DNA from: Knoellia koreensis | GTDB taxonomy: Bacteria; Actinomycetota; Actinomycetes; Actinomycetales; Dermatophilaceae | DNA: 64,000 nt | Reading direction: 5' to 3' | Assembly: GCF_013041615.1 (NCBI RefSeq) | Contig: NZ_JABEPQ010000001.1 | Span: 922,976-986,975 of the forward strand | Shown: positions 1 through 62,061 of the stretch, piece after piece | How the letters are laid out: every line of letters begins with the position of its first letter | Numbering within the stretch: the first letter of the stretch is position 1 | Made by a program: the position numbers and the translations under genes | The notes under the pieces: model-generated | Database searches by the model: none | What the model saw: only the letters and a program-made list of their open reading frames with translations | Told to the model about the DNA's origin: nothing

Positions 1-209
1 CTCCCAGGGCGGAGGGTTTCGAGACGCCCCGGTCCTACGTCGAGGTGGACTCCATCGACGACGCGGTGGCGAAGGCGAAGGACAGCGGCGGGACGGTGGT
101 CATGGAGAAGTCACCGATCAGCGAGACGAGTTGGTATGCCGTCATCGCCGACCCCGACGGCAACAACATCGGTCTCTACGAGGGTGTGACCGAGGTGTCC
201 GAGCAGTAG
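1..209 (+). CDS. VOC (glyoxalase/bleomycin-resistance fold) family protein, C-terminal part
   Basis: This is the last 68 codons of a gene whose 5' part lies outside the window. The frame ends at the TAG at 207-209. The visible part has the typical end of a VOC protein: a YVEVDSIDDA strand-helix, then ETSWYAVIADPDGNNIGLYEG, where DPDGNNIGLYE is the usual last strand with the metal-ligand Glu position. VOC proteins are small cytosolic metalloenzymes or binding proteins with varied substrates, so no specific reaction can be given. One copy of the dispersed octamer GTATGCCG (134-141) encodes its Tyr-Ala. Confidence 0.8.
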   Translation, partial: PRAEGFETPRSYVEVDSIDDAVAKAKDSGGTVVMEKSPISETSWYAVIADPDGNNIGLYEGVTEVSEQ

Positions 210-226
210 CACCCTCGAGATGACGG

Positions 227-1372: not shown

Positions 1373-1506
1373 AGGCGCGATGGGCGGTTCGCCAGGTCGC
1401 CGGTGCTACCGGTCCTGCTCATGGGGCCAGTGTCCGAGTGCCTGCTCCGAGCGGGCCGGGAGCGGGCTGCGAGTTGCCTGTGAGGCACCTGCCCGAGCCC
1501 ACGGCA

Positions 1507-1512
1507 TACGAT
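1507..1512 (+). promoter_or_regulatory. -10 box of leaderless nadA promoter
   Basis: TACGAT lies six bases before the nadA GTG, so transcription would begin at or next to the start codon. No Shine-Dalgarno sequence is present. The hexamer begins inside a CGGCATAC octamer (1502-1509). Confidence 0.5.
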
Positions 1513-1518
1513 CGGCAC

Positions 1519-2715: not shown

Positions 2716-3385
2716 GCCCGCGCGGCGTGCCGTCGTGGGACATCGGTATGCCGCGGGGCTTGGTTTTGCTCGCGACTTGCCGTTCGCGTACGGGCTCGTT
2801 CGGGCTCGTTCGGGCTGGTTGTCAGACGCTGGCGACGCCCGAGGCGGTCTTGATGGCTCCCTGGGTCCGTCGCCTTCGCGATCGGTGGGGAGACAGGCGC
2901 TTTGGACGGGCGGGCTGTCGTGGAGCGGTGTCGCGATTGCGTCGCCTTGACGCTCGGGCATGACGCGGGACGCTCGGATGAAGGGCTTGGTCGTGGGCCG
3001 GCCTCGCTGTCTGCTGCTCGTGCGACCGCTTGGCACACAAGCGCTTTGGACGGACTATCCGGGGGGTCTGCCCGGATTTGTCGCCTTGTCATCGGCCAGG
3101 CAAAAGTCGCTGGGACGAATGGCTAGGTCTTGGGGTCGGTTTCGTCGACGGGCCGCTCGTGCGATCGCTTGGCACACGGGGCCTTCGGTTGGGGAGTCGT
3201 CGCGGGCCTCGTCGCCTTGATGTGGTCGCTTTGGTGTGGCCGTGAGCGACGTCGCGACCCGTGCACGATCTGCCGCCTCGTCGGTCTGGACCACCCTTTG
3301 CCGACGGCGCGATGCGCCAGTCACTTCCGCTTCAGGACCACCTGGCGCTTGTGAACGAACTCTCTTGGAAACAAACAGGATTCGG
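2716..3385. repeat. Gene-free stretch with degenerate tandem repeats
   Basis: No convincing gene lies between nadA and the HNH gene, and base use is visibly more T-rich than in neighbouring genes. Three tandem 10-bp units stand at 2791-2820 (CGGGCTCGTT twice, then CGGGCTGGTT). A longer degenerate unit recurs with a period near 139 bp. GCTCGTGCGAYCGCTTGGCA plus CAC occurs at 3016-3038 and 3155-3177 (one mismatch). GTCGCCTTG occurs at 2941, 3080 and 3211. GCGCTTTGGACGG occurs at 2897 and 3041. An octamer copy is at 2746. Short open frames on both strands look like chance. It may be a decayed duplication linked to the HNH gene. Confidence 0.6.
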
Positions 3386-3394: not shown

Positions 3395-3397
3395 GTC

Positions 3398-6024: not shown

Positions 6025-7188
6025 ATGCCAGCCAACCCACTACGCCGCAGAACCAGCCACACCCGTCGACCATCCCGCGCCGCCCTCGCTCTGGGCGCCA
6101 CGGCTGCACTCACCGCCCTCGCGGCCCTCCCCGCCTCAGCCGCAACGGCCCTTAACGCCGCCTCCGGACCGACCGTCGTCGCCTCCGGACTCGACAACCC
6201 GCGCCAGCTCGCCGTCACCGCCTCCGGTGACGTCTACGTCGCCGAAGCCGGCCGCGGCGGCGCCGGCCCGTGCCACGCGGGTCCCGAGGGAGAGTCCTGC
6301 TTCGGCACCACCGGCGCCGTGACGGTCGCACCACGACACGGCACCCAGCACCGCATCGTCACCGGGCTCCCGTCGATGGCGGCACCAGACGGATCCGGCG
6401 CCATCGGCCCCAGCGACGTCGAACCGGTCGGCAGCGGCCAGGCCCTGGTCCTCATCGGCCTCGGCGCCAACCCCGGCCTGCGCGACACCCTCCCCGCCGC
6501 CGGCCGCAAGCTCGCCACCCTCCAGCTCGTCGGCCCGGGCAACAGCAGCAAGACGCTGTCCGACCTCGGCGCCTTCGAGGCGCGCACCAACCCCATCCAC
6601 GACCCGGACAGCAACCCAGTCTCGATCGCCAAGGACGGCAACGGATTCATGATCGCGGACGCCGGCGGCAACACGGTGGTCCGCACCGACCGGCTGGGCA
6701 AGTCATCCACTGTGGCCGTGTTCGACGACCAGCTCGCCACCGCACCACCGTTCCTCGGCCTGCCACCCGGGACCAAGATGCCCGCCCAGGCCGTGCCGAC
6801 CGCAGCAGCCAAGGGGCCCGACGGCGCCTGGTACGTCAGCCAGCTCACCGGGTTCCCCTTCGAGCCGGGCCTGGCGAAGATCTACCGAGTCGTTCCCGGG
6901 CACGCACCGACCGTCTACGCCAGTGGGCTGACCAACGTCACCTCGCTCGCGTGGTCACCCAGCGGCCACCTGTATGCCGTCCAGATCGCCGACGGTGGTC
7001 TGCTCGCCTCCGAGGGGCTGCCGATGGGGTCACTGCTGCGGATCACCCCCGGCGCCAGCTCGCACACGGCGGTCGCCGGCCCGCTGCCTGCCCCCTACGG
7101 CGTCGCGATCTCGGGCAGCTCGGCCTACGTGTCCACCTGCGCGGTCTGCCCCGGCGGTGGACGGGTCATGCGAATCCCGTTGTCCTGA
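6025..7188 (+). CDS. Secreted ScyD/ScyE-like beta-propeller protein
   Basis: A 387-residue product. It starts with an Arg-rich n-region, a hydrophobic stretch (AALALGATAALTALAALP) and an ASA-A cleavage site, so it is exported. The mature part begins PTVVASGLDNPRQLAV and has AEAGRGGAGPC and CFGTTGAV, features of the ScyD/ScyE family of predicted six-bladed (NHL/SMP-30-like) beta-propellers. Paired cysteines near the N- and C-termini (CAVCPGGG) could form disulfides outside the cell. The family name comes from cyanobacterial scytonemin clusters; the role in Actinobacteria is unknown. The ATG at 6025 has a GGAGGGG ribosome site just upstream (6016-6022). The 179-base gap before it shows no clear signals. 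Confidence 0.75.
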   Translation: MPANPLRRRTSHTRRPSRAALALGATAALTALAALPASAATALNAASGPTVVASGLDNPRQLAVTASGDVYVAEAGRGGAGPCHAGPEGESCFGTTGAVTVAPRHGTQHRIVTGLPSMAAPDGSGAIGPSDVEPVGSGQALVLIGLGANPGLRDTLPAAGRKLATLQLVGPGNSSKTLSDLGAFEARTNPIHDPDSNPVSIAKDGNGFMIADAGGNTVVRTDRLGKSSTVAVFDDQLATAPPFLGLPPGTKMPAQAVPTAAAKGPDGAWYVSQLTGFPFEPGLAKIYRVVPGHAPTVYASGLTNVTSLAWSPSGHLYAVQIADGGLLASEGLPMGSLLRITPGASSHTAVAGPLPAPYGVAISGSSAYVSTCAVCPGGGRVMRIPLS

Positions 7189-7263: not shown

Positions 7264-8499
7264 TCAGGCGGTCAGCTCCTCCACCGCGAGCGTCAGCCCC
7301 GCGGCGCGCAAGCGTTCGACGAGCACGTCACCCATGGCGGTTGCGGGCGTCAGCACACCTGCGACCGCCGGGAGCCGCTCCCCGTCCAGTGCCAACGCAA
7401 GAGCCGACTCTCCCAGCATCACGGCCGTCGCGGCATACCCGGGGTCACCCTGTCCGGCCACGGTCGACAGATAGCGCCGCCCCGACGAGGTGGTCGTCCG
7501 GATCTTCATCTGGAACCACCCGGCAGCCCGCGCCTCCTCGCTCGGCCCCTCCCCCGGCTTCGGCGCGAACCGGTCGATGACCGGACGCGTCCGCTCGTTC
7601 GCCATGCCTGCCATGGCCGCACCCAGCGCCGCGGTCATCGCGAGCGCCCGCAGCCGCCCCTTCACCCCGCGACCGTATGCCGCGAGCTCCCGGTAGCGGA
7701 ACCGTCGCCCATACGCGTGGCCGGCAAGTGCGTTGCTACGTCTCACGATTCGCGTGTTGAAGGCGGCCATGACGAACGGTCCCACCCACTGACCGGTGTC
7801 CGCGTCCACGAACACCGACCGGTTGTCCCTCTCCGACCCGAGGTCGGGTTCGGACGCACGGTCGGGACTCACGGCATACGGGTCGAGGACGACCTTCATG
7901 AGCGAACGGTCGGCCATCACGGCGTCGACCTGTGTGCGCGACGAGTCGATCGTGCCACCGGAGAAGCCGCCCTTCATCCGGGCCAGCAGGGTCGTGTCGC
8001 CCAGGTCGCCGGCACCGTCGGCCTCCGCCCGCTCGTGCAGCAGGAGGACGCCCAGGTCGGACGGGATCGAGTCGTAGCCACACGCGTTGACGATGCGCGC
8101 GCCACTCGCCAGCGCCGTCCGGTGCAGCTCGTCGGCGAGCCGGCGCACGAACAGCACCTCGCCGGTGAGGTCTGCGTAGTGGGTCCCTGCCTCGGCGCAC
8201 GCCCGGGCCAGCGGCAGTCCGTACTTGAGGTAGGGCCCGACGGTCGTCACGACGGCGGTCGTCGAGGCCGCCAGGTCCGCCAAGGCCTTCGCGTCCGCCG
8301 CATCCGCCACCAGCACCGGCCACTCCCGCGCCGCACCCGGGAGCCCCGCACGCACGGCCTCGAGCCGCTCCCGCGACCGCCCGGCCAACGCGATCCGCGC
8401 CCCGGCGGGTGCGTGTTCGGCGAGGTAACCCGCGAGCAGCTTGCCCACGAAACCGGTCGCCCCGAAGACGACGAGGTCGTGCTCGCGCAGGGTGCTCAT
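7264..8499 (-). CDS. Saccharopine-dehydrogenase-like / trans-acting enoyl reductase family protein
   Basis: A 411-residue protein starting with a Rossmann NAD(P)-binding motif (VVFGATGFVGKLLAGYL, residues 9-25) and the GRS-R-LE segment typical of saccharopine dehydrogenase-like reductases. The pattern of VVTTVGPYLKYG, YADLTGE and CGYDSIPSDLG matches the actinobacterial group annotated as trans-acting enoyl reductase, after the mycobacterial phthiocerol/phenolglycolipid enzyme. Lipid modification is possible but not shown by context. Its ATG overlaps the stop of the upstream gene by four bases (ATGA), so the two are probably translated together. Confidence 0.8.
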   Translation of the reverse strand: MSTLREHDLVVFGATGFVGKLLAGYLAEHAPAGARIALAGRSRERLEAVRAGLPGAAREWPVLVADAADAKALADLAASTTAVVTTVGPYLKYGLPLARACAEAGTHYADLTGEVLFVRRLADELHRTALASGARIVNACGYDSIPSDLGVLLLHERAEADGAGDLGDTTLLARMKGGFSGGTIDSSRTQVDAVMADRSLMKVVLDPYAVSPDRASEPDLGSERDNRSVFVDADTGQWVGPFVMAAFNTRIVRRSNALAGHAYGRRFRYRELAAYGRGVKGRLRALAMTAALGAAMAGMANERTRPVIDRFAPKPGEGPSEEARAAGWFQMKIRTTTSSGRRYLSTVAGQGDPGYAATAVMLGESALALALDGERLPAVAGVLTPATAMGDVLVERLRAAGLTLAVEELTA

Positions 8500-9524
8500 G
8501 CCCCGTGACCCTCGGGAACGACCTCGGCCGCCGGCGGCGGCCCGGGTGCTGTGCCGTCACCGAACGGCCGACCGCCCAGCTCCTCCCGACCGTGGGGGGT
8601 CAGCCAGCCGGACAGGTCGGGGCCGAGCGGCACGATCCCCGTCGGGTTGATGTCGCGGTGCACGACGTAGTAGTGCTGTTTGATCTGCACGAAGTCCGTG
8701 GTGTCTCCGAACCCCGGCGTCTGGAACAGGTCCCGCGCATACGCCCACAGCACCGGCAGCTCGGTCAGCTTGGACCGGTTGCACTTGAAGTGCCCGTGGT
8801 AGACCGGGTCGAACCGCGCCAAGGTGGTGAAGAGCCGCACGTCCGCCTCGGTGATGGTGTCGCCCATGAGGAAACGCCTGGTCGCCAGCCGCTCCTCGAG
8901 CCAGTTGAGCGCGTCCCACAGCCGGCGGTATGCCGCGTCGTAGGACTCCTGCTCACCGGCGAACCCGCAGCGGTACACACCGTTGTTGACCTCGCGGTAG
9001 ACCCGGTCCATCACCTCGGTCATCTCGTCGCGCAACGCCTCCGGGTAGAGGTCGGGCGCACCCTCGCGGTGAAACGCAGTCCACTGCGTGGAGAAGTCGA
9101 GGGTGATCTGGGCGAAGTCGTTCGTGACCACCTCACCGCTGGTCTCCTCGACGATCGCCGGCACGGTGATCCCGCGCGGGTACCCCGGGAACCGCTTCTC
9201 GTATGCGTCCTTGAGCCGCGGGATGCCGAGCACCGGGTCGATGCCGCCGGGGTCGAGGTCGAACGTCCAGCTGTCCTGGTCGTGGGTCGGCCCGCAGAGC
9301 CCGAGCGAGATCGCGTCCTCGAGCCCGAGCAGCCGTCGCACGATGAGGGTGCGGTTCGCCCACGGGCACGCACGCGCCGCCACGAGGCGGTAGCGACCCG
9401 CCTCGACCGGCCACTGGCGGGCACCGTCGCCGTCGGGTCCGTCCTGCGGGTCCGCGACGATCCGGTCGGTGATGTAGTTGGTGTCTCGTTCGAAGGACTT
9501 CTCGACGTAGGTCTGCTGCGCCAT
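8496..9524 (-). CDS. Glutathione S-transferase family, glutathionyl-hydroquinone reductase-like (YqjG/ECM4)
   Basis: A 342-residue cytosolic thiol transferase. The thioredoxin-like N-terminal domain has the catalytic CPWA motif (in ARACPWANRTLIVRRLLGLE), followed by the long YPRGITVPAIVEE and VVTNDFAQI segments and an all-helical C-terminal GST domain. This is the omega-like class that reduces glutathionyl- (in Actinobacteria more likely mycothiolyl-) hydroquinones; the thiol partner here is inferred. Length and motif order match the family. It is first of a two-gene unit with the reductase at 7264-8499. Confidence 0.85.
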   Translation of the reverse strand: MAQQTYVEKSFERDTNYITDRIVADPQDGPDGDGARQWPVEAGRYRLVAARACPWANRTLIVRRLLGLEDAISLGLCGPTHDQDSWTFDLDPGGIDPVLGIPRLKDAYEKRFPGYPRGITVPAIVEETSGEVVTNDFAQITLDFSTQWTAFHREGAPDLYPEALRDEMTEVMDRVYREVNNGVYRCGFAGEQESYDAAYRRLWDALNWLEERLATRRFLMGDTITEADVRLFTTLARFDPVYHGHFKCNRSKLTELPVLWAYARDLFQTPGFGDTTDFVQIKQHYYVVHRDINPTGIVPLGPDLSGWLTPHGREELGGRPFGDGTAPGPPPAAEVVPEGHGA

Positions 9525-9546: not shown

Positions 9547-10923
9547 TCAGCCCCTCGCGCGGGTGTGGGCGATGAGGTCGCGGTACCAGTGGTAGGAGTC
9601 CTTGGGGGTGCGCACGAGGGTCTCGTAGTCGACGTGCACCAGCCCGAACCGCTCCTTGTAGCCCTCGGCCCACTCGAAGTTGTCGGTCGCCGACCAGGCG
9701 AAGTAGCCGCGCACGTCGGCTCCGTCCGCGATCTCGCCGGCGAGCGCCCGCAGGTGCGCGTCGTGGTAGGCGATCCGCTTCGGGTCGGCGACGCGTCCGT
9801 CGACGGGGTCGGCGTCGTGGTAGCTGCACCCGCTCTCGGTCACGTACACCGGCGGCAACGCCGCGGCATACCGGCCGCGCAGCGTCCGCACCAGCTCGGC
9901 GAGGGCCTCCGGCACGATCGGCCAGTTGAAGTCGGTGCGCTCGTAGCCCGCCAGCGGCCGGTTCTCGAACGGCAGCCCCGCGGGCACCTCGACCCCGCCG
10001 AGCTCCTCGGTCGCCGACCCCGCCCCGGGGGCGCCGATGCTGGCGGGGTTGTAGTAGTTGACGCCGAACCAGTCCAGCGGCTGGTGGATCGTCTCGAGGT
10101 CGCCGTCGCGGTACGTGGGAAAGCCCTGCTCCATGCCCTCCACCGGGTACCGCCCGAGCAGCACCGGGTCGGCAAACGTCCAGTTCCACAGGTTGTCGTA
10201 GACCTGCGCGGCCTCGCGGTCGGCGTCGCTGTCCGACGCGGGCCACACCGGCGCGTGGTTGCTCGCGATCCCGATCTCGTGCGCGCCCGCGGAGCGCAGC
10301 GCCTGGACGGCCAGACCGTGCCCGAGCAGCAGGTGGTGGGCGACCGGCAGGGCTTCGTAGCCGAGCCCGCGACCGGGCGCGTGGACGTCGAGCGCGTAGC
10401 CGAGCATCGTCACGACGTTGGGCTCGTTGAGGGTCATCCACCGGGCGACCCGGTCACCGAGGCGTTCACCGACGACGGAGGCGTATGCCGCGAAGTGCTC
10501 GGCGATGTCGCGTCCCGTCCAGCCCCCGGCATCCTCCAACGCCTGCGGGGTGTCCCAGTGGAAAAGCGTTGCGGCTGGCGCGATCCCGGCCGCCAGCAGC
10601 TCGTCGACCAGGCGGTCGTAGAAGTCGAGCCCAGCCTGGTTCACCTCACCCGTGCCGGCGGGCAGGATGCGCGGCCACGCGATCGAGAACCGGTAGCTGT
10701 CGACCCCGAGGTCACGCAGCAGGCCGACGTCCTGGGCATACCGGTGGTAGTGGTCGCAGGCGACCGCGCCGGTGTCACCGTTCGCGACCTTGCCGGGGAC
10801 GTCACAGAACGTGTCCCACACCGAGCGACCACGCCCGTCCTCGTCGACCGCACCCTCGATCTGGTACGACGCCGACGACGCCCCGAACACGAAATCCGTT
10901 GGCAGCGAAGGGAAGTCGGTCAT
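9547..10923 (-). CDS. Beta-glucosidase, glycoside hydrolase family 1
   Basis: A 458-residue TIM-barrel enzyme that hydrolyses beta-linked glucosides (or galactosides) by a retaining two-step mechanism. The GH1 N-terminal signature FVFGASSASYQIEGA is at 11-25, the acid/base Glu is in TLNEP (Glu167) and the nucleophile is in YVTESG (about Glu363; most GH1 enzymes have TENG, so Ser replaces Asn after the nucleophile). There is no signal peptide, so it is cytosolic and acts on imported disaccharides. It lies 12 bases downstream of the M20 gene and is probably co-transcribed. No sugar transporter or LacI-type regulator is nearby. Confidence 0.9.
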   Translation of the reverse strand: MTDFPSLPTDFVFGASSASYQIEGAVDEDGRGRSVWDTFCDVPGKVANGDTGAVACDHYHRYAQDVGLLRDLGVDSYRFSIAWPRILPAGTGEVNQAGLDFYDRLVDELLAAGIAPAATLFHWDTPQALEDAGGWTGRDIAEHFAAYASVVGERLGDRVARWMTLNEPNVVTMLGYALDVHAPGRGLGYEALPVAHHLLLGHGLAVQALRSAGAHEIGIASNHAPVWPASDSDADREAAQVYDNLWNWTFADPVLLGRYPVEGMEQGFPTYRDGDLETIHQPLDWFGVNYYNPASIGAPGAGSATEELGGVEVPAGLPFENRPLAGYERTDFNWPIVPEALAELVRTLRGRYAAALPPVYVTESGCSYHDADPVDGRVADPKRIAYHDAHLRALAGEIADGADVRGYFAWSATDNFEWAEGYKERFGLVHVDYETLVRTPKDSYHWYRDLIAHTRARG

Positions 10924-12313: not shown

Positions 12314-12351
12314 GTGGGTGCGCGGATTCGGGCCGTGGCGTCCCCACGGCA

Positions 12352-12357
12352 TACCCT
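12352..12357 (+). promoter_or_regulatory. -10 box of leaderless DUF3043 gene
   Basis: TACCCT, six bases before the GTG at 12364. It starts inside a CGGCATAC octamer (12347-12354), with the same octamer-to-start spacing (nine bases) as at nadA. Confidence 0.45.
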
Positions 12358-12363: not shown

Positions 12364-12945
12364 GTGTTCGGACGCAGCAAGACCATCAATGAGGAGCAGG
12401 CCGAGACGGTCGCGCGCCCCCAGCGCGAGGGTGCCAAGAACCGGCCCACTCCCAAGCGCAAGGACCAGGAGGCCGCGCGCAAGCGCCCCCTGGTCGAGAC
12501 CGACCGCAAGGCGGCGCGCGAGCGCGAGCGGCAGGCCCGCCGCGAGGCCTCGCTCAAGCAGCGGCAGGCGATGGTCACCGGCGACGACGCGGGTCTCCCG
12601 CCGCGCGACAAGGGCCCGGTCCGGCGCTACATCCGCGACTTCGTCGACGCCCGCTGGAGCGTGGGCGAGTTCCTGCTGCCGGTCATGCTGGTCGTGCTGG
12701 CGCTGTCGTTCATCCAGAAGCCGATCGTCTTCGCCATCGTCTCGATCGGCGTCTACGGCCTCATCGCGGTCGCCGCGCTCGACGGTTTCCTCATGTGGCG
12801 CAAGCTCAAGCGCCAGCTCGTCACCAAGTTCGGCGAGGACAAGGTCGGACGCGGCCTGGCCATGTATGCCGTGATGCGCGGTTTCCAGATCCGCCGCGCC
12901 CGTATGCCCAAGCCGCAGGTCGACCGGGGTCAGTACCCGTCGTAA
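12364..12945 (+). CDS. DUF3043 domain membrane protein
   Basis: A 193-residue actinobacterial protein of unknown function. The first 90 residues are highly charged (runs such as KRKDQEAARKRP and ARERERQARREA, likely coiled or disordered). They lead to RRYIRDFVDARWSVGEFLLP, two transmembrane helices (about 104-122 and 126-146) and a basic C-terminus. The order of charged N-terminus, RDFVDAR motif and two membrane spans is characteristic of DUF3043. The start is the GTG with a -10 box six bases before it. It converges with the 71-residue gene (11-base gap). Confidence 0.8.
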   Translation: MFGRSKTINEEQAETVARPQREGAKNRPTPKRKDQEAARKRPLVETDRKAARERERQARREASLKQRQAMVTGDDAGLPPRDKGPVRRYIRDFVDARWSVGEFLLPVMLVVLALSFIQKPIVFAIVSIGVYGLIAVAALDGFLMWRKLKRQLVTKFGEDKVGRGLAMYAVMRGFQIRRARMPKPQVDRGQYPS

Positions 12946-19127: not shown

Positions 19128-19167
19128 CATGGGTGACCACGCGGCATACGGCGCGGTCATCTCCTCC

Positions 19168-27972: not shown

Positions 27973-28123
27973 GGTCCCCCGTCCCCGCACGCGGTCCCTG
28001 CGGGAATACCCCGAAACGCGCAGGCGTACCCTTGAAGGACGCCCGGTGACCTCCGGGCGTTACCGCGCCCACGCGGCATACCTGTCGAGCGAGGCGCACC
28101 GAACGCAAGGCAAGGGAGTCTTC

Positions 28124-43888: not shown

Positions 43889-43918
43889 GTATGCCGCGGA
43901 GCCGGCTCCGCGGCATAC
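43889..43918. terminator. Perfect 30-bp palindrome built from two facing octamers
   Basis: GTATGCCGCGGAGCC is followed directly by its exact reverse complement. The RNA could fold into a 13-bp stem with a CCGG tetraloop, so it may terminate rluD transcription 20 bases after its stop. The outer eight bases of each arm are the dispersed octamer, in opposite orientations. Confidence 0.7.
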
Positions 43919-51775: not shown

Positions 51776-52519
51776 TCAGCGGGTGACCGGGGTCTCCGGT
51801 GCACTGACGTCGATGACCTTCGGCTTGCCCTTGAGCAGCGCCTGGACGATCTCGAGCTTGCGGTCGGGCTCGTCGAGGCCGCCCCACACCACCGAGGTCG
51901 AGCCGATCTTGAGCGTGACGAGACCGGCGCCGCTGACGGTCACCGCAGACACCTTGTCCTGGGTCGCGGCCGGCAGCACCCGGACCACCGACACGGCCGC
52001 CTGCAGGGCTTCGCGCGACAGCGCCGCACTGGTGGCCGCCGACACCACCGGCACCCCCTTGGGCGCCTGTCGCACGACCGCGTACGCCACCCCCGTCTCA
52101 TCCACAACCTGTAGTTGACCTTGAGGGTTCTTGACCACGAGGAACGGGGTGCGCGGGCTCGCGTGGATGACCAGGGTGCCCGGCCACGAGCGCTCGATCG
52201 AGACGTCCGCGACGGTCGCCCGCTGGGTCACCCGGTCGGCGACGGCCGCGGTGTCGACGCGGGCCAGCGGCTGCCCGACCGGCACCTGTGCGAGGTCGCG
52301 GATCGGGGCCACCTCGCCCGCCGGCACGCCCACGACCTCCACCGTGCGCACGGCGAGCAACGGGCTGAACGCCACCACCCAGACCAGCGCGGCCACGACG
52401 AGCACCGTCACGACGGCATACCCCCACAGCCGACGTGGTCGGCGCTGCACCTCCTGGGCGCGGCGCACGAACCGGTCGCGTGACGAGGCGACCCCGCGGC
52501 CCTGCGTCGGCGCGCTCAC
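51776..52519 (-). CDS. ftsQ: Cell division protein FtsQ (DivIB)
   Basis: A 247-residue single-pass membrane protein: a basic cytoplasmic N-terminus, one helix (about 33-52, YAVVTVLVVAALVWVVAF), a POTRA domain (about 55-125, LLAVRTVEVVGVPAGEVAPIRDLAQVPVGQPLARVDTAAVADRV) and an FtsQ beta domain. It links FtsZ-side proteins with FtsW/FtsI at the septum. Its GTG overlaps the murC stop by four bases. Confidence 0.95.
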   Translation of the reverse strand: MSAPTQGRGVASSRDRFVRRAQEVQRRPRRLWGYAVVTVLVVAALVWVVAFSPLLAVRTVEVVGVPAGEVAPIRDLAQVPVGQPLARVDTAAVADRVTQRATVADVSIERSWPGTLVIHASPRTPFLVVKNPQGQLQVVDETGVAYAVVRQAPKGVPVVSAATSAALSREALQAAVSVVRVLPAATQDKVSAVTVSGAGLVTLKIGSTSVVWGGLDEPDRKLEIVQALLKGKPKVIDVSAPETPVTR

Positions 52520-53955
52520 CGGTCCCCCAGGGCGCGCAGGATCTCCGGGCCGATCATGGTGACGTCGCCGGCTCCGACGGTGAGGACGAGGTCGCCCTCG
52601 CGGGCCAGGCCGGCGACCGTCTCGGCGACCGCGGACCAGGACGGCACGACCCGCACGTCGGCGTCGGGCCGCGACTCGACCAGGGCGTCGGCGACGAGCT
52701 GGGAGGAGACGCCGGGCACGGGGTCCTCGCGCGCGGCATACACCTCCATGAGGACGACGACGTCGGCCGGCGCGAGGGCCCGACCGAACTCCGTCGCGAA
52801 GTCACGGGTCCGGGAGAACAGGTGCGGCTGGAAGACCACGACGAGCCGTGCGTCCCCCTCCACGAGCGAGCGCCCGGTCTCGACGACGGCCGCCACCTTG
52901 CCCGGGTTGTGCGCGTAGTCGTCGACGACGGTCACCCCGCCCGCGCTCCCCTTGGGCTCGAACCGTCGGCGGGTGCCGGTGAACCCGTAGAGCCCGTCGA
53001 GGATGCGTGCAGGGTCCTGTCCCAGCCCCTCGACGGCGACGGTGTATGCCGCGGCGGCGTTGAGCAGGTTGTGCCGGCCCGGCACCTTGACCCGCAGGAC
53101 GCGTTCCTCGCCGTCGGGTCCGCGCAGTGCAGCGCGGGCCAGCAGCCCGCGGAACGCCGGGTCGGTCAGGACCACGTCGGCATCGGCCGCGAAACCGTAG
53201 GTCAGGACGCGGACGCCGGAGGCGCGGGCGGACTCGGCCAGTCGGCGTGAGCCCTCGTCGTCGGCGCAGGCGACGAGCAGCCCGCCCGGCTGCACCGACG
53301 CGGCGAACTCGGCGTACGCCTCCTGCACCCGCTCGAAGCTGCCGTAGAAGTCGAGGTGGTCAGGCTGCACGTTGGTGACGACGGCGACCTCGGGCCGGTA
53401 GACGAGGAACGACCCGTCGCTCTCGTCGGCCTCCGCCACGAACACCTCACCAGTGCCCCAGTGGGCGTTCGTGCCGTGACCGGCCAGCTCGCCGCCGGCC
53501 GCGAAGGACGGGTCGATCCCGCAGTGCTGCAACGCGACCGTGAGCATCGAGGTCGTCGTCGTCTTGCCGTTGGCGCCGGCCACCGCGACCCGGCGCGAGC
53601 CCGCCATCGTGGCGGCGAGGGCCTGGGCGCGGTGCAGGACCCGCAGGCCACGCTCTCGTGCCGTCGCCAGCTCGACGTTGCTCTCGCGGATGGCCGAGGA
53701 GACGACGACGGTGTCGACGCCGTCGAGGTATGCCGGGTCGTGGCCGACGTGGACGTCGGCACCTTCGGCGGCCAGCGCCGCCAGCAGCGGCGAGTCCTTG
53801 GCGTCCGAGCCACTGACCCGGGTGCCGCGGGCGAGCATGACCCGCGCGACCCCGGACATGCCGGCACCGCCGATCGCGATGAAGTGGACGGCACCCAGCT
53901 CCTCGAGCGCAGGCACCTCGGCGCGGAAGTCGAACCGCAGGTTCTCGCCGTTCAT
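52516..53955 (-). CDS. murC: UDP-N-acetylmuramate-L-alanine ligase
   Basis: A 479-residue ATP-dependent ligase that adds the first amino acid to UDP-MurNAc. The Rossmann motif AIGGAGMSGVARVML (27-41), P-loop AGANGKTTTTS (127-136), ADESDGSFL and QPDHLDFYGS are all present. Overlaps at both ends (ATGA with murG, GTGA with ftsQ) show tight translational coupling. Confidence 0.97.
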   Translation of the reverse strand: MNGENLRFDFRAEVPALEELGAVHFIAIGGAGMSGVARVMLARGTRVSGSDAKDSPLLAALAAEGADVHVGHDPAYLDGVDTVVVSSAIRESNVELATARERGLRVLHRAQALAATMAGSRRVAVAGANGKTTTTSMLTVALQHCGIDPSFAAGGELAGHGTNAHWGTGEVFVAEADESDGSFLVYRPEVAVVTNVQPDHLDFYGSFERVQEAYAEFAASVQPGGLLVACADDEGSRRLAESARASGVRVLTYGFAADADVVLTDPAFRGLLARAALRGPDGEERVLRVKVPGRHNLLNAAAAYTVAVEGLGQDPARILDGLYGFTGTRRRFEPKGSAGGVTVVDDYAHNPGKVAAVVETGRSLVEGDARLVVVFQPHLFSRTRDFATEFGRALAPADVVVLMEVYAAREDPVPGVSSQLVADALVESRPDADVRVVPSWSAVAETVAGLAREGDLVLTVGAGDVTMIGPEILRALGDR

Positions 53956-55100
53956 CGTTGCCCCGGCGATGGATGTCCTTGCTTGCCAAGGGATTCCGCG
54001 TAGGCAGCGTCGACCATGTCGGCCAGGAGCTCGTCGGCTCCGCGCTCCCCCGTCACCGCCGAGGCTTGCGCCATGGCGTCGAGCCGGGCCCGGTCACCCA
54101 GCAGCGGCAGCAGGTCGGAGTCGACCCAGGCCGGGGTGAAGCCGGCGTCCTCGACGAGCAGGCCCCCACCGGCCGCGACGACGTCGGCCGCGTTGAACCG
54201 CTGCTCGCCGTTGCCGATGGGCAGGGGCACGTAGACCGCAGGGAGCCCGACAGCGGTCAGCTCACACACGGTGTTGGCACCGGCGCGGGCCACGACGAGG
54301 TCGGCCACGGCATACGCGAGGTCCATCCGGTCGGCATAGGGGGCGACGACGTAGCGCGCGGCGCCGCTGCCGCCCTCGGTCGGTCGCTGCGGCGTGAACT
54401 CCTTGCCGGCACCGGTGAGGTGCAGCACCTGCACCCCACGCGCCGACAGCTCTGCCGCGCGCGCCTCGAAGGTGCTGTTGAGGCGTTGCGCCCCCAGGGA
54501 TCCGCCCGTCACGAGCAGCGTCGGCCGGGTGTCGTCGAGACCGAAGTAGGCCAGGCCCTCGGCGCGCGAGGCGGCCCGGTCGAGCTGCGCGATCTCGGGG
54601 CGCAGCGGCATACCGATCGCGGTGGCGTGCGCCAGCTTGGTGGACCGGAACGTCGTCGCGACGTGGTCGGTGAACCGGGCGCCGAGCCGGTTGGCGATGC
54701 CGGGTCGCGCGTTCTGCTCGTGGACCACGATCGGCACGTGGCGGCGGCGCGCCGCGAGGTAGGCCGGGGTCGAGACGTAGCCACCGAAGCCCACGACGAC
54801 CTGGGCGCCCGACTCCTCGATCGCGCGCTCGGCCGCGCGGACCGCCGCACGCAGGTTGCCGGGCAGGCGCAGCAGGTCGGCCGAGGGGCGCCGCGGCAAC
54901 GGCACCTTGGGCACCGTCAGCAACGGGTAGCCGCGCTCGGGCACGAGCCGCGCCTCGAGCCCGGCCTGCGTGCCGAGCGCGGCGACGTGGACGTCGGGGT
55001 TGCGCCGGCGCAGGCAGTCGGCGAGGGCCAGCAGGGGCGAGACGTGACCAGCCGTCCCCCCGCCGGCCAGCAGGACCGAGGTGGGTGAGGAGCCGGCCAT
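53952..55100 (-). CDS. murG: UDP-GlcNAc:lipid I N-acetylglucosamine transferase
   Basis: A 382-residue GT-B glycosyltransferase on the inner membrane face that converts lipid I to lipid II. G-loop 1 LLAGGGTAGHVSPLLALA, G-loop 2 VVVGFGGYVSTPAYLAA, HEQNARPGIANRLGARF, VTGGSLGAQRLN and ARAGANTVCELTAVGLPAVYVPLPIGNGEQRFNA match the family throughout. The ATG shares one base with the ftsW stop. Confidence 0.97.
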   Translation of the reverse strand: MAGSSPTSVLLAGGGTAGHVSPLLALADCLRRRNPDVHVAALGTQAGLEARLVPERGYPLLTVPKVPLPRRPSADLLRLPGNLRAAVRAAERAIEESGAQVVVGFGGYVSTPAYLAARRRHVPIVVHEQNARPGIANRLGARFTDHVATTFRSTKLAHATAIGMPLRPEIAQLDRAASRAEGLAYFGLDDTRPTLLVTGGSLGAQRLNSTFEARAAELSARGVQVLHLTGAGKEFTPQRPTEGGSGAARYVVAPYADRMDLAYAVADLVVARAGANTVCELTAVGLPAVYVPLPIGNGEQRFNAADVVAAGGGLLVEDAGFTPAWVDSDLLPLLGDRARLDAMAQASAVTGERGADELLADMVDAAYAESLGKQGHPSPGQR

Positions 55101-56380: not shown

Positions 56381-57877
56381 CTACCCACCTGTGGTGTCGG
56401 CACGGCGCGCGACGGCTGCCGCGAAGGCGTCGCCGCGTGCGCCGTAGTTGGGGAACATGTCCATGGAGGCCGCGGCCGGTGCGAGCAGGACGACGTCACC
56501 CGGCTGGGCGAGGTCGGCTGCACGGGCCACGACGAGGTCCATGACCCCAGTGTCCGTGGTGGGGACGTCCACGACGGGGACATCCGGCGCGTGTCGGGCC
56601 AACGCGTCGGCCAGCTGGGCCCGGTCCTGCCCGATCAGCACCACGCCGCGCAACCGGCCGGCCGCGTCGCGCACGAGCTCGTCGACGTCGGCGCCCTTGA
56701 GGAGTCCTCCGGCGACCCACACCACATGCTCGAACGCCCCGAGCGATGCGGCTGCAGCGTGCGGGTTGGTCGCCTTGGAGTCGTCGACCCAGCGCACTCC
56801 CCCGACGACACCGAGGTCGGCGATGCGGTGCGGCTCGGGTGCGAAGGCACGCAACCCGTTTCGCACCGCGGCGGGAGGTATGCCGTAGGAGCGGGCGAGG
56901 GCGGCCGCCGCCAGCGCGTTGGCGAGCTGGTGGGGGGCGAGCGTCGGTGCGGCGCCCTGGACGTCGGCGAGGGTGGCCAGCTCGGCGGCGGAGGTGCGCC
57001 GCTCCTGCACGAACGCGCGGTCGGCCAGCACGTCGTCGACGACCCCGACCATCGACAGGCCCGGCGTACCGAGGGTGAACCCGATGGCGCGGCAGCCCTC
57101 CTGCACCTCGGCATCCATGACGAGCTGCTCGGTCGCGGGGTCCTGCACGTTGTAGACGCACGCGACCTTGGTGTTCGCGTAGACCTTGCCCTTGGCCCGC
57201 ACGTACTCCTCGTAGGAGCCGTGCCAGTCGACGTGGTCGGGCGCGAGGTTGAGGCAGCAGGAGGCATACGGCGCAAGGGAGTCCGACCAGTGCAGCTGGA
57301 AGCTGGACAGCTCGACGGCGATGACGTCGTAGGGCTCGGGGTGCAGGACCGCCTCGAGGATGGGGGTGCCGATGTTGCCGGCGGCGGTGGCCCGCAGCCC
57401 ACCGGCACGCAGCATCTCGGCGAGCATCGCGACCGTCGTGGTCTTGCCGTTGGTGCCGGTGACGGTGATCCAGGGGGCGGGCCCGACGGCCGCGCGCATG
57501 CGCCAGGCGAGCTCGACCTCACCCCAGACGGGTATGCCGTCGCGAGCCGCCTGCGCGAGCAACGGCTGGTCCGGTCGCCACCCCGGCGAGGTGACGACGA
57601 GGTCGGGCACCCAGCCCGCCGGCATACCCGTCGTGTGGTCGGCGCCGAGGCGCACGTCGACGCCGAGGATGTCGAGGATGCGGGCACGCTCGGCCAGCGT
57701 GGTGTTGGTGTCGGGGTCGCCGCCGTCCACGGCGATGACGTGGGCGCCCCTCTCCTGCAACGCATCTGCGGCGGCGAAGCCACTCACGCCCAGACCGGTC
57801 ACGAGGACGCGCAGGCCGCTCCAGTCGGCCCCGGCGTTGGTCAGCCCGTCGAGCCGCCCACCAGGGTGTGCGCTCAT
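56381..57877 (-). CDS. murD: UDP-N-acetylmuramoylalanine-D-glutamate ligase
   Basis: A 498-residue ligase that adds D-Glu. VLVTGLGVSGFAAADALQERGAHV (Rossmann), VTGTNGKTTTVAMLAEML (P-loop 138-147), ELSSFQLHW, NLAPDHVDWHGSYEEYVRAKGKVYAN and DDSKATNPHAA are present. A weak GGGGA ribosome site precedes the ATG; it is separated from mraY by 61 bases, the widest gap inside the mur block. Confidence 0.96.
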   Translation of the reverse strand: MSAHPGGRLDGLTNAGADWSGLRVLVTGLGVSGFAAADALQERGAHVIAVDGGDPDTNTTLAERARILDILGVDVRLGADHTTGMPAGWVPDLVVTSPGWRPDQPLLAQAARDGIPVWGEVELAWRMRAAVGPAPWITVTGTNGKTTTVAMLAEMLRAGGLRATAAGNIGTPILEAVLHPEPYDVIAVELSSFQLHWSDSLAPYASCCLNLAPDHVDWHGSYEEYVRAKGKVYANTKVACVYNVQDPATEQLVMDAEVQEGCRAIGFTLGTPGLSMVGVVDDVLADRAFVQERRTSAAELATLADVQGAAPTLAPHQLANALAAAALARSYGIPPAAVRNGLRAFAPEPHRIADLGVVGGVRWVDDSKATNPHAAAASLGAFEHVVWVAGGLLKGADVDELVRDAAGRLRGVVLIGQDRAQLADALARHAPDVPVVDVPTTDTGVMDLVVARAADLAQPGDVVLLAPAAASMDMFPNYGARGDAFAAAVARRADTTGG

Positions 57878-57938
57878 TCGGGGTCCCCGCCAAGTACCTG
57901 GTGGAGCGAAGCGGAGGCAGAGCCTCGTGGGGTTGTCG

Positions 57939-59021
57939 TCATGCTCCGCCCACGACCCACTCGGCGTAGAAGATGCCGAGGCCGAGCGCGACGCACAGCC
58001 CGGCGATGATCCAGAACCGGATGACGATGGTGACCTCGTTCCACCCCATCAGCTCGAAGTGGTGCTGCAACGGCGCCATCCGGAAAACGCGTTTGCCGGT
58101 GAGCTTGAACGAGCCGACCTGGATGATGACCGACAGCGTGATGGCGACGAACAGCCCGCCGAGGATGATGATGAGCAGCTCGGTGCGGGTGGTGATGGCG
58201 AGCCCCGCGAGTGCGCCACCGAGGGCCAGGGACCCGGTGTCGCCCATGAAGATCTTGGCCGGTGACGCGTTCCACCACAGGAAGCCGAAGCAGGCACCCA
58301 TGCAGGCTGCGGCGACCACCGCGAGGTCTCGTGAGTCACGCACCTCGTAGCACTTGAGCCCGGGGGTGATCTGGCAGTTCTGGTTGCCCTGCCAGATGCC
58401 GATGAGGACGTAGGCCGCGAACACCATCACCGAAGCGCCGGTGGCGAGTCCGTCGAGGCCGTCGGTGAGGTTCACGCCGTTGGAGGTGCCCGCGATCATG
58501 AGGTTGGCCCAGATCACAAAGAGCACCAGCCCGATCAGTGGCCCGGCGAAGGCCAGGTTGAACGGGGTGTCGCGGACGAACGAGATGCTCGTCGAGGCGG
58601 GTGTGCGCCAGTGGCTGTTGGGGAACTGCAGCGCCAGCACGGCGAAGATCACCGCGACGAGGGTCTGGCCGGCGAGCTTCTCCCCCGACCGGAGGCCGAG
58701 GCTGCGCTGCTTGGAGATCTTGATGTAGTCGTCGAGGAACCCCACGAGCCCGAGCCCGGCCATGAGGAACAGCACGAGGACGCCGCTCCACGTGAACGGT
58801 GTGCCGGTGATGGCGTGCGCGAGGCCGTATGCCGCGAGGGCCGAGCCGATGATGACCGAGCCACCCATGGTGGGCGTGCCGCGCTTGGTGTGGTGCGAGG
58901 TGGGTCCGTCGTCGCGGATGAACTGGCCGTACCCCCGCTTGACGAGGAACTTGATGTACATCGGGGTGCCCAGCAGGGCACCCACGAGGGAGATGACGGC
59001 TGCCGCCAGCACCGCCTTCAC
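57939..59021 (-). CDS. mraY: Phospho-N-acetylmuramoyl-pentapeptide transferase
   Basis: A 360-residue ten-helix membrane enzyme that loads UDP-MurNAc-pentapeptide onto undecaprenyl phosphate to make lipid [34 protein letters not shown] (Asp pair), [12 protein letters not shown] and [11 protein letters not shown] are the catalytic and metal motifs; the C-terminal [14 protein letters not shown] is also typical. The GTG overlaps the murF stop by four bases. Confidence 0.97.
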
Positions 59022-60496
59022 GTCGCGTCCTCCTGCTTGTCACCCGTGCTGTCACCGGTGTCCGCGGTGGGCCCCGACTCGGCGGCCACCCTGTCACCGA
59101 GCCACCGTAGTCCGGCGTCGCGGCTGGACTTGAGCAACACGACGTCACCGGGGAGAAGTTTGTCGGCGAGCAGGTCGTGGGCGGCGTCGGCGTCGGGCAC
59201 CCACACGACCTCCTCACCCCACGACCCCTCGTGCTGGGCCCCGGTGGCCATCGGACGGGCGGTCTCCCCGACCACGACGAGCCTGGAGATGTTGAGCCGC
59301 ACCGCGAGCCGGCCGATGGCGTCGTGCTCGGTCAGCGAGTCGTCACCGAGCTCGAGCATCGAACCGAGGACCGCCCAGGTGCGCCGCGGGGTTCCGTCCT
59401 CGGCCCGGCTCATCGCGACCAGCGCCTTGAGGGCGGCCCGCATCGAGTCCGGGTTGGCGTTGTAGGCGTCGTTGACGACGGTGACGCCGTCCGAGCGCTC
59501 GGTGACCTCCATCCGCCACCGCGAGGCGGGCGTCGCCGTGCTCAGAACCCTCACCGTCAGGTCGAGGTCAACCCCACTCTCGAGTGCTGCCGCAACCACG
59601 GCGAGGGCGTTGCCCACGTGGTGCTCGCCGTGCAGGGCCAGCGTCACCCGACGCGACACCGGCTCGGCGCCCGGCGAGGTGACCACGAGGGTGAAGGACG
59701 GTCGGCCGAACGCGTCGAGGCTGATGTCCTGCGCCCGCACCTGCGCGTCGGCGGCCGTGCCGACGAGGACGACGCGCGCGTCGGTGACATCGGCCATGGC
59801 CCGCACCGCCGCGTCGTCGGCGTTGAGGACCGCCACCCCGTCCGCGGGCAGCGCCGCCACCAGCTCGGACTTGGCGGTGGCGATGGCCTCGCGCGACCCG
59901 AACTCCCCCACGTGGGCGGTGCCAACGTTGAGCTCGATGCCGATGCGCGGTGGCGCGATGGTCGTGAGGTAGGCGATGTGCCCGATGCCACGGGCCCCCA
60001 TCTCGACGACGAGGTAGCGGGTCTGCGGGGTGACCCGGAAGACCGTGAGGGGCACCCCCACCTCGGAGTTGAGCGAGCCGACGGGCGCGACGGTCGGTGC
60101 GTGTGCGGCCAGGACCGCGCCGAGCAGGTCCTTGGTCGAGGTCTTGCCGGACGACCCGGTGATGCCGATGACGGTGAGGTCGGGATGGCGGTCGACGACC
60201 GCCCGCGCCAGCGCGGCGAGGCCGTCCTGGATGTCCTCGACGACGACACACGGCAGCTCCTCGACCGGCCGGGTCGTCAGCGCAGCGATGGCGCCCTGGT
60301 CGCGGGCACCCGCCACGAACTGGTGGCCGTCGAGCTGCTCGCCGATGCGGGCGATGTAGAGGCCGCCCGGCCCGGCTTCGCGCGAGTCGGTGACCACCGG
60401 GCCGTCGACGACGAGCAAACGCGCCGCGGCGTCGTCGATGCCTTCGAGGCGCCCGTTCGTGATCTCGGCGATCTCCTTGAGGGACAACGGGATCAC
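59018..60496 (-). CDS. murF: UDP-MurNAc-tripeptide D-alanyl-D-alanine ligase
   Basis: A 492-residue ligase that adds D-Ala-D-Ala. P-loop [15 protein letters not shown] (111-125), [29 protein letters not shown] and [14 protein letters not shown] follow family order. The last 25 residues ([20 protein letters not shown]) are an acidic tail not needed for the fold. GTG start overlaps the murE stop by four bases. Confidence 0.96.
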
Positions 60497-62061
60497 GGTG
60501 TGCCGTCCTTGTCGGTGAGGGCCCGAAGGGCGGCCTCGGCTTCCGCCCGGTCGTCGAAGGGGTGCACGGTCCCGGCGATCTCCTGTCCTGTCTCGTGGCC
60601 CTTGCCCACGACGGCGACGACGCTGCCTGGCCCCGCGGCATACGCGGCCGACACCGCGGCACGGATCGCGTCACCCCGTCCCGCCACGTCGTGCAGCTCG
60701 GCATCCGTCGCAGCCGCGGTGGCGCCGGCGAGGACGGCCGCACGGATCACTGCGGGGTCCTCGGTGCGCGGGTTGTCGTCGGTGACGAAGACGAGGTCGG
60801 CCGCCCGGGCCGCGGCCTCACCCATGCCTGCCCGCTTGCCCCGGTCGCGGTCGCCACCGGCACCGAGGACGACGACCAGCGCGCCGGAGGTGGTGGGCCG
60901 CAGCGCACGCAGCGCGGCGGCGACAGCCTCGGGGGTGTGCGCGTAGTCGACGACCACCAGGGGCAGGTCGCCGGCGCCGGCCTCGCCGGCCAGCGTCACC
61001 TGCTCCATCCGGCCGGGCACGTGCGGGTCGGCCGCCAGCGCGCGCTCGGCGTCGTCGGCCGAGTGGCCGGTCGCCAGCAGAGCCAGCGCCGCCATGGCGG
61101 TGTTGACCCGGTTGAAGTCACCCGGCAGGGCCGACCGCAGTCGCAGCGTCGTCCCACCGTCGGTGAGCTCGAAGGCGGCCGGGTCGTCGCCGTCGACGGT
61201 GAGCCGCCACTGCGCGTCGACGCCCTCGACCGAGGTCATGGTGGTGACGGGAACCGTTGCGGTTGTTGCGAGCTCGCGCCCCCACTCGTCGTCGACGCAC
61301 ACGACTCCCTGCCGTGCGCGCTCCGGGGTGAACAGCGAGGCCTTGGCCTCGAAGTAGTCGCGCATCGTGGGGTGGAAGTCGAGGTGGTCCTGCGACAGGT
61401 TGGTGAACAGCGCGACGTCGTAGACGACACCGTCGACCCGGTGCTGGGCCAGCGCGTGGCTCGACACCTCCATGACGCACGACTGCACGCCGCGTTCGGT
61501 CATGAGGGCCAGCAGCGCATGCAGCACCGTCGCCTCGGGTGTGGTGCGCACGCTCTTGACCCGCTCGTCGACGATGCGCGTCTCGACCGTGCCGATGAGC
61601 CCGGTGCGCTGGCCGAGCGCGACCAGGGCCGAGTTGATGAGGTATGCCGTGGTGGTCTTGCCGTTGGTGCCCGTCACCCCGTACATCGTGAGGCCCAGCT
61701 GCTCGGTGCCGTACGCGCGGGCCGCGACCGCACCGACGACCGAGCGCGGCGACTCCACGACGACGCGCGGCAGCACCACGCCCGCTTCGTCGAGGATCTG
61801 CACCCCACGGACGTCGGTCAGGACGGCGACGGCGCCCAGCCCGGCCGCGCCCGCGGCATACGAGGCGCCATGGGCGTTGGCGCCCGGCAGGGCGGCATAC
61901 AGGTCTCCGGCCACGACGTCACGCGAGTCGAGGGTCACCCCGGTGACGGCGACCTGGCCGTCCTCCCCCGGCACGGCGGGGCGGTCGACGGCTCCCCCGA
62001 CGAGCGCGGCGAGGGACTCCAGCGTGATGGCATGCGAAGACGCCGGACGGGGGGATGACAC
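60493..62061 (-). CDS. murE: UDP-MurNAc-tripeptide synthetase (meso-DAP-adding)
   Basis: A 522-residue ligase that adds the third residue of the stem peptide. P-loop GVTGTNGKTTTAYLI (128-142), EVSSHALAQHRVDG, FTNLSQDHLDFHPTM and VDYAHTPEAV are complete. The substrate motif DNPRTEDP (near residue 430) is the one linked to diaminopimelate rather than Lys. GTG start, 17 bases downstream of ftsI. Confidence 0.96.
   Translation of the reverse strand: MSSPRPASSHAITLESLAALVGGAVDRPAVPGEDGQVAVTGVTLDSRDVVAGDLYAALPGANAHGASYAAGAAGLGAVAVLTDVRGVQILDEAGVVLPRVVVESPRSVVGAVAARAYGTEQLGLTMYGVTGTNGKTTTAYLINSALVALGQRTGLIGTVETRIVDERVKSVRTTPEATVLHALLALMTERGVQSCVMEVSSHALAQHRVDGVVYDVALFTNLSQDHLDFHPTMRDYFEAKASLFTPERARQGVVCVDDEWGRELATTATVPVTTMTSVEGVDAQWRLTVDGDDPAAFELTDGGTTLRLRSALPGDFNRVNTAMAALALLATGHSADDAERALAADPHVPGRMEQVTLAGEAGAGDLPLVVVDYAHTPEAVAAALRALRPTTSGALVVVLGAGGDRDRGKRAGMGEAAARAADLVFVTDDNPRTEDPAVIRAAVLAGATAAATDAELHDVAGRGDAIRAAVSAAYAAGPGSVVAVVGKGHETGQEIAGTVHPFDDRAEAEAALRALTDKDGTP

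Follow-up and report, generated by a model that had tools for sequence, protein, structure and literature searches.

A non-palindromic octamer repeated about once per kilobase in Knoellia koreensis: a candidate DNA uptake sequence of Dermatophilaceae

The genome of Knoellia koreensis is strewn with a non-palindromic octamer, GTATGCCG (CGGCATAC in its reverse-strand form), which we hold with moderate confidence to be a candidate DNA uptake sequence of the Dermatophilaceae (the family in the GTDB sense, Micrococcales), comparable to the DNA uptake sequence (DUS) of Neisseriaceae and the uptake signal sequence (USS) of Pasteurellaceae. The word came to attention in a stretch of 64,000 nucleotides, which we call the window (G000:C1:922976-986975, where G000 is the K. 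koreensis genome of 4,282,418 bases in 15 contigs). The evidence comprises its abundance, the balance of its copies between strands, an origin that codon usage does not supply, the avoidance of same-orientation neighbors in GTATGCCG genomes, and inverted pairs between genes, along with the turnover of copies in place by point mutation, dialects, a patchy distribution among relatives, and the com and tad genes of the host.

Abundance and sequence context of the word

The window holds 61 exact copies, 32 forward and 29 reverse, the first starting at 134 and the last ending at 61900, precisely the roughly one-per-kilobase frequency and near-even orientation counted by hand in the initial annotation. 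Across 100 dinucleotide-preserving shuffles of the window the mean number of copies was 0.75 and the largest was 4; an order-3 Markov model predicts 3.0, and the word is the top 8-mer by z score. The whole genome contains 1983 + 2003 = 3,986 copies (0.93 per kb), compared with 54 + 60 = 114 for the reversed-word control. In a sample of 658,686 bases (30 stretches plus the window), GTATGCCG is again the most over-represented 8-mer, with 566 copies against 28.7 expected from an order-3 Markov background. Computing that background with the word masked lowers the expectation to 5.0.

Codon preference cannot account for these copies, as had been argued at the outset. Our own gene calls on the sample (568 genes, 84.2% of bases) place 413 of the 566 copies wholly within coding sequence, whereas shuffling synonymous codons within genes yields a mean of 34.2 (standard deviation 4.5, largest of 30 shuffles 44). 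A ratio near one under such a null, which the initial annotation had named as grounds for refutation, is not what the sample gives. A further 148 copies lie between genes and 5 span a gene boundary, and copy density is higher between genes (1.42 per kb) than in them (0.745 per kb). Window copies likewise occupy genes of either strand as well as gaps, as first noted: called genes contain 49 (12 in those of the + strand and 37 in those of the - strand), and the other 12 are intergenic. The related suggestion that the word forces otherwise rare codons held for two of the four codons named. Slightly more than half of the rare TAT (195/358) and ATA (44/82) codons in the sample lie inside the word, which is not the case for GTA (7/159) or GCA (128/1730); outside the word, TAT makes up 5.1% of Tyr codons.

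The longest copy-free interval of the window, 2754-6971, had been taken as a sign of foreign DNA. Under random spacing, a longest gap of that size has a P value of 0.63; its length is ordinary, and we dropped this reading. Elsewhere in the genome, mobile-looking contigs (two plasmid-like, one island) are nearly without the word: C14 (37,586 bases) has 0 copies, C15 (37,100 bases) has 3, and C9:1-40000 has 4. Judged by eye from N-termini, C14 looks like a plasmid, with ParA, SSB, and a resolvase; on C15 there are secretion genes together with SSB and resolvase-like ones, and insertion sequence and integrase-like genes lie in C9:1-40000.

Orientation, spacing, and inverted pairs

Strand counts per stretch were compared for 29 of the 31 stretches of the K. 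koreensis genome (two had no copy at all, and the origin was not located). They fit a 50:50 model and are more even than chance would make them (chi-square 7.6 on 29 degrees of freedom, lower-tail P = 2.4e-5); assuming 75:25 polarity instead costs 66 log units. The early argument from near-equal orientations against a replication-polar signal, such as Chi or the FtsK orienting polar sequences (KOPS), is borne out. We rejected the replication-polar class because the polar mixture fails on these 29 stretches, in which the strong replichore polarity typical of KOPS was not found.

The over-even counts prompted an unplanned test of the distances between copies, carried out on 754,686 bases of the genome (4 kb of L193 overlapping L090 was cut). 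Same-orientation pairs are depleted at short range, with observed-to-expected ratios of 0.14 at 8-60 bp, 0.45 at 60-150, 0.35 at 150-300, and 0.45 at 300-600; the ratio then rises to 0.70 (600-1000) and 0.84 (1000-1500) and lies at 1.01-1.15 beyond. Opposite-orientation pairs show no such depletion (0.96-1.22 at 60-1500 bp) and are in excess below 60 bp (2.2). Adjacent copies are in opposite orientation 396 times and in the same orientation 182 times (P = 3e-19), compared with 379 opposite and 425 same for four control words together, and neighbors inside single genes follow suit (109 opposite versus 43 same). The avoidance of one another by same-orientation copies explains why the strand counts per stretch are too even.

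This avoidance within about 1 kb, in which opposite copies do not take part, is a new observation. It recurs more weakly in Nostocoides jenkinsii (219 opposite versus 149 same, P = 3e-4), in stretches of 8 other genera (78 versus 45, P = 0.004), and in 7 named loci (29 versus 15, P = 0.049). Genome G030 with its own word GTATGCG, discussed below, gives 20 versus 5 (P = 0.004) from few copies. Taken literally, the pattern means that a copy works in a single orientation and for about 1 kb, which argues for a strand-specific reader, whether in polar uptake or, less likely, at a Chi-like hotspot. More generally, avoidance of this kind could be used to examine, across whole genomes, whether uptake has a direction.

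Pairs of copies within 60 bp are dominated by inverted arrangements: the sample contains 21 inward (+-) and 10 outward pairs, 1 ++ pair, and 1 -- pair. Nineteen of the 21 inward pairs lie between genes, only 2 of these 19 in divergent gaps, and of the 14 in tandem gaps 11 are nearer the gene 3' end (P = 0.057, counted by reading gene calls). The intergenic inward pairs fold at -12.6 to -51.7 kcal/mol and are candidates for a secondary use as hairpins between genes. The window has one such pair, a 30-base inverted arrangement whose fold as RNA is -24.9 kcal/mol (43889-43918). All window copies are listed below by exact match and our own gene calls, in window coordinates with the strand of the word.

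134..141, +, between genes
1502..1509, -, between genes
2746..2753, +, between genes
6972..6979, +, in gene
7431..7438, -, in gene
7675..7682, +, in gene
7872..7879, -, in gene
8928..8935, +, in gene
9864..9871, -, in gene
10483..10490, +, in gene
11292..11299, -, in gene
12347..12354, -, between genes
12864..12871, +, between genes
13225..13232, +, in gene
14622..14629, -, in gene
16267..16274, -, in gene
16577..16584, +, between genes
16802..16809, -, between genes
17957..17964, +, in gene
19052..19059, +, in gene
19142..19149, -, between genes
20765..20772, +, in gene
20843..20850, +, in gene
22353..22360, -, in gene
24354..24361, +, in gene
25232..25239, -, in gene
26301..26308, +, in gene
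27062..27069, +, in gene
28074..28081, -, in gene
30459..30466, +, in gene
30625..30632, +, in gene
32761..32768, -, half of a close outward-facing (-+) pair within a gene
32785..32792, +, other half of the outward-facing pair with 32761..32768
35219..35226, -, in gene
35679..35686, +, between genes
35750..35757, -, between genes
36492..36499, +, in gene
38253..38260, +, in gene
38718..38725, +, in gene
39665..39672, -, in gene
41384..41391, +, in gene
42757..42764, -, in gene
43889..43896, +, left arm of the 30-base inverted pair, between two - strand genes
43911..43918, -, right arm of the same inverted pair
47472..47479, -, in gene
48786..48793, +, in gene
49056..49063, -, in gene
52414..52421, -, in gene
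52734..52741, -, in gene
53044..53051, +, in gene
53728..53735, +, in gene
54308..54315, -, in gene
54606..54613, -, in gene
56878..56885, +, in gene
57532..57539, +, in gene
57620..57627, -, in gene
58827..58834, +, in the gene used as query for named relatives, which we take to be mraY from the gene order
60636..60643, -, in gene
61642..61649, +, in gene
61854..61861, -, in gene
61893..61900, -, in gene

Distribution, turnover, and dialects among relatives

We surveyed 58 genomes, K. koreensis and 57 relatives, calling a genome a carrier at 150 copies per Mb. All 10 congeners carry GTATGCCG (625-2551 copies), as do 13 of the 26 family genera, its own included, at no less than this density, while none of the 22 genomes from other families reaches it. 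The densest carrier of the 58 is G017. The query gene that contains the copy at 58827..58834 matched 80 loci, most Streptomyces rows among which were left aside; its nearest named relatives among the records covered stand at 82% (Phycicoccus), and we read the family from such named matches. Whole-genome counts for the 24 genomes behind named loci put 10 at the threshold or above: Nostocoides jenkinsii (3272), a Tetrasphaera metagenome-assembled genome (MAG; 2311), Flexivirga caeni (2304), Terrabacter sp. Ter38 (2069), Knoellia aerolata (1971), Serinicoccus kebangsaanensis (1624), S. sediminis (1513), Arsenicicoccus cauae (1455, control 462), and two further MAGs (1423 and 816). Ornithinimicrobium laminariae has 404 copies (control 69), and G029 shows a weak excess (293, control 130). 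The same counts identify as noncarriers Phycicoccus jejuensis (21), P. sonneratiae (23), Luteipulveratus (47), Janibacter Soil728 (38), Austwickia (83), two MAGs (55 and 47), and genomes of Cellulomonas, Isoptericola, Sanguibacter, Flaviflexus, and Actinomyces (9-59). The word is thus patchy among relatives.

An alignment by MAFFT of the orthologous region in K. koreensis and its ten congeners (11 species), which share 77-81% DNA identity with it, indicates how copies come and go. Of 30 aligned sites with the word in at least one species, 11 have it in one species only. Exact retention from K. koreensis, summed over the ten congener rows and with gapped columns left out, is 52 of 154 cells, compared with 10 of 168 for control 8-mers of the form SWWWSSSS. 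At most printed sites the other congeners differ by point changes, not gaps, their letters at the word columns reading GTACGCCG, GTAGGCCG, CTATGCCG, GGATGCCG, GCATGCCG, and similar. The word is therefore gained and lost in place by point change at varied positions, which argues against insertion and against a single mutation bias.

In some relatives the word is replaced by one-letter dialects, GGATGCCG and GTATGCGG. Genome G026 has 3816 copies of GGATGCCG (control 392) but 235 of GTATGCCG; in genomes other than G026, G011, and G055, GGATGCCG numbers 253-976. Genome G030 has 1204 copies of GTATGCGG (control 107; other genomes at most 459) but 196 of GTATGCCG, and the MAG behind L105, which completes the 24 genomes behind named loci, has 3658 copies of GGATGCCK (control 226) and 288 of GTATGCCG. 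In these three family genomes the dialects appear to follow relatedness. A ComEC tree made by a quick method (41 rows; it leaves out G004, whose comEC is split between two frames, and genomes without a fetched comEC) places G026 beside the GTATGCCG genome G025 inside a carrier group, with Shimodaira-Hasegawa-like approximate likelihood ratio (SH-aLRT) values of 89 for the pair and 98 for the group of four.

The remaining excesses are less clear. Eleven of the 26 family genera have neither GTATGCCG at threshold density nor a clear dialect in the 11-80 kb read from each. In G011 a weak excess of GGATGCCG is seen (1336 copies in the whole genome, control 310). G055, from another family of the order, has 3044 copies of GGATGCCK (control 200), 1548 of them ending in G, and it is possible that this is a further dialect or a different system; ATGC is common to GTATGCCG, the dialect words, and the G055 word. 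G034 (L027, L063, L064), which lacks GTATGCCG, has several over-represented words with none dominant: TACGGCCA occurs 19 times against 1.4 expected, and GTACGCC 55 times against 13.5 in 60 kb (0.92 per kb). The latter is one letter from GTATGCC, leaves the following letter free, and has 28 opposite and 24 same adjacent pairs; it is possibly a dialect or a codon effect. In G046, GTTCAGCG occurs just 11 times in 60 kb.

Local clusters of such words were also seen. In 60 kb of G055 (L210-L212), copies of GGATGCC(T/G) lie within 60 bp of each other in the same orientation 10 times. A tandem array at L277:15232-15680 (G026:C1:55232-55680) holds six same-orientation GGATGCCG copies at steps of 51-102 bases. 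At G053:C1:28082-31265, more than 50 GTATGCGG copies lie in one orientation at steps of about 61 bases, probably an array of clustered regularly interspaced short palindromic repeats (CRISPR) or another repeat array unrelated to the word described here.

The uptake hypothesis, its rivals, and known systems

What we infer beyond these observations concerns uptake itself, the identity of a reader, the mechanism of its polarity, and decay after loss. A component of a competence machine built, like that of Micrococcus luteus, from a Tad/Flp pilus with ComEA and ComEC would prefer free DNA bearing the word; fragments with the word would enter and recombine more often, and the word would therefore spread, kept by biased transmission with or without selection. 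If the reader acted on a single strand, or unidirectionally, across about 1 kb, a second copy facing the same way would add little, and a copy facing the opposite way would not interfere. The genome would then contain a set of copies for either strand, each set spacing itself independently of the other, with about one copy per fragment length. A changed specificity of the reader would give rise to dialects, and its loss would let the word decay. It is conceivable, and we put it forward tentatively as something a little short of an even prospect, that this would be the first Gram-positive uptake-sequence system, a Tad/Flp-pilus machine of Actinomycetota that reads GTATGCCG or a dialect strand-specifically and directionally.

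K. koreensis encodes proteins of the kind that such a machine would need (ComEA-, ComEC-, ComF-like, and Tad-type), with some members below curated cut-offs. The ComEC-like protein exceeds the cut-off of PF03772 and matches TIGR00361 at E = 4.6e-52 (177 bits versus a cut-off of 190), the ComEA-like protein exceeds the cut-off of TIGR00426, and the ComF-like protein is weak. One Tad locus adjoins a DEAH helicase, with TIGR03817, TIGR03819, TIGR03816, and TadE_Rv3655c over cut-off; a second, Tad-like locus has TadA- and CpaB-like proteins below cut-off. We dropped the type IVa pilus as the machine, since it was not found in K. koreensis and does not track the word, and we treat it as a trait of the known systems and not as defining DUS or USS. 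Two irregularities were noted along the way. Matches to TadE_Rv3655c in the GTATGCGG-dialect genome G030 are weak, unlike those in other family members (best 4.4e-6, below cut-off), which is a lead toward the reader of the word. The comEC match of G004, a congener with 2537 copies, is split into two open frames (G004:C1:1517076-1517881), possibly through sequencing error or recent loss.

Several points weigh against the uptake hypothesis. What decides membership among DUS and USS is a gain in DNA uptake or transformation, and no experiment on either in these genera is known to us. No reader of the word was identified, and neither a PilT above cut-off nor a PilM was found in K. koreensis, whereas the known systems have a type IV pilus. 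With ComEC in 57 of the 58 genomes and TadE-family minor pilins in all of them (54 above cut-off), neither follows the distribution of the word; being near-universal, their presence is uninformative as a switch for it, and we set it aside. Same-orientation avoidance is not significant in ten 20-kb congener stretches (49 opposite versus 34 same, P = 0.12), and none is seen in the GG dialect (63 versus 51 in G026, tandem array included; 11 versus 16 in L105) or in G055 (32 versus 47). Most neisserial DUS are intergenic (PMC2397512) and GTATGCCG is mostly coding (413/566), and experiments with an actinobacillus USS mentioned in PMC2346458 show no orientation effect. As for the inward pairs, a gene 3' end stands beside 17 of the 19 intergenic ones, but only divergent gaps lack such an end; a terminator role is unproven because the hairpins have no T-runs.

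An alternative that would also be strand-specific, and that we think unlikely, is a Chi-like hotspot, at which a helicase-nuclease (AdnAB, AddAB, or another) would read the word in one direction at broken ends and switch to recombination, with about 1 kb served per copy. Chi sites, read by RecBCD or AddAB, are non-palindromic octamers that act directionally over kilobases; GTATGCCG is alike in being a non-palindromic octamer with apparently directional action, and a directional reader predicts both same-orientation avoidance over about 1 kb and independent orientations. Known Chi sites show replication polarity, which is absent from the 29 K. koreensis stretches. RecC was found in 18 of the 58 genomes, including K. 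koreensis, the carriers G021 and G035, and the dialect genome G030, but not in any of the 10 word-carrying congeners or in G017; RecBCD as the reader is accordingly disfavored. Inverted pairs, one-letter dialects, and a higher density between genes than in them also speak against this explanation, none of them being known to us as a feature of Chi.

The initial annotation had likened the word to HIP1 (highly iterated palindrome 1) of cyanobacteria, GCGATCGC, as something kept by repair, methylation, or biased mutation. This was a fair lead, although not the best match, and DUS and USS would seem the closer parallel. In its explicit form, an orphan methyltransferase with a methyl-directed repair ratchet, or biased mutation, would make and keep the word site by site. 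HIP1 is likewise a very frequent 8-mer, patchy, and swapped for other words in some strains, where the replacement words come with matching methyltransferases (PMC4390886). HIP words are palindromes tied to methyltransferases and, being palindromes, have no orientation, whereas GTATGCCG is not its own reverse complement. Its precursors in the congener alignment differ at several positions by different changes, and one-letter-off words in the sample are not depleted overall but in mild excess (446 versus 331.7 expected, 1.34x; single ones range from 0.32 to 3.78). Nor would a per-site process tie a copy to the orientation of another 500 bp away, so that the same-orientation avoidance is unexpected. 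We therefore consider site-by-site upkeep quite improbable and methylation disfavored as the process behind it.

Selection might instead keep the word as the binding site of a chromosome-organizing protein or as an RNA-level signal. In keeping with such a role, the word is spread over the whole genome, arises in place by point change, and is kept at orthologous sites, and its coding copies modestly prefer the coding strand (232 versus 181 in the sample, P = 0.014). An orientation-blind binder, which cannot tell strands apart, is at odds with avoidance among same-orientation but not opposite copies, and a pure RNA signal with the use of both strands relative to genes, leaving this a very improbable explanation. 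A dispersed insertion element or repeat remnant would fit the high copy number, but strict conservation is confined to 8 bp with a weak YGNGG tail and congeners mostly differ by point changes at the printed sites, and we give it practically no credence.

The uptake hypothesis draws its closest parallels from the two Gram-negative families. Like neisserial DUS, GTATGCCG occurs about once per kilobase on unbiased strands, with close inverted pairs, an intergenic excess, and dialects differing by few letters (PMC3630211, PMC2397512, PMC2346458). The Neisseriaceae have eight DUS dialects and some genera without any such word (PMC3630211), and their DUS form inverted-repeat terminators and are spaced by about 1.5 kb (PMC2397512). 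The differences are that the core of GTATGCCG is 8 bp and DUS are 10-12 bp; that its host is Gram-positive, with about 70% GC, and has Tad genes with no PilT or PilM found in K. koreensis; and that it combines orientation-specific avoidance with hairpins without T-runs and a function that is as yet a candidate. ATGCCG is common to GTATGCCG and neisserial DUS (ATGCCGTCTGAA as printed in PMC2346458), probably by chance, given that GTATGCCG lacks CTG, the core of the neisserial word.

Pasteurellaceae USS, which serve uptake of double-stranded DNA by a type IV pilus machine, resemble GTATGCCG in their spacing of about 1,000 bp and their close inverted pairs, which for USS lie at gene ends (PMC7811141), and in having no general orientation bias (PMC2346458). 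The word itself is unrelated, and no A/T-tract flanks were seen in the K. koreensis sample. As to the machine, transformation of M. luteus by its Flp pili requires two tad loci plus comEA/EC (PMC4322843), and K. koreensis likewise combines Tad loci with comEA and comEC, while type IVa pilus genes were not found in it. The parallel does not extend to a word, as the phrase "uptake sequence" has 0 occurrences in the main text of that paper; among matches listed in the open-licence literature, titles and the starts of abstracts name no actinobacterial uptake word.

If the uptake hypothesis is correct, it may provide a genetic handle on hard-to-manipulate genera (Nostocoides, Knoellia, Terrabacter), and natural dialect switches could guide the hunt for the receptor. 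To our knowledge, self-recognition by an abundant uptake word is confined to Neisseriaceae and Pasteurellaceae, both with type IV pilus machines; a Tad-pilus case in Actinomycetota would then represent convergent evolution of selective DNA uptake.

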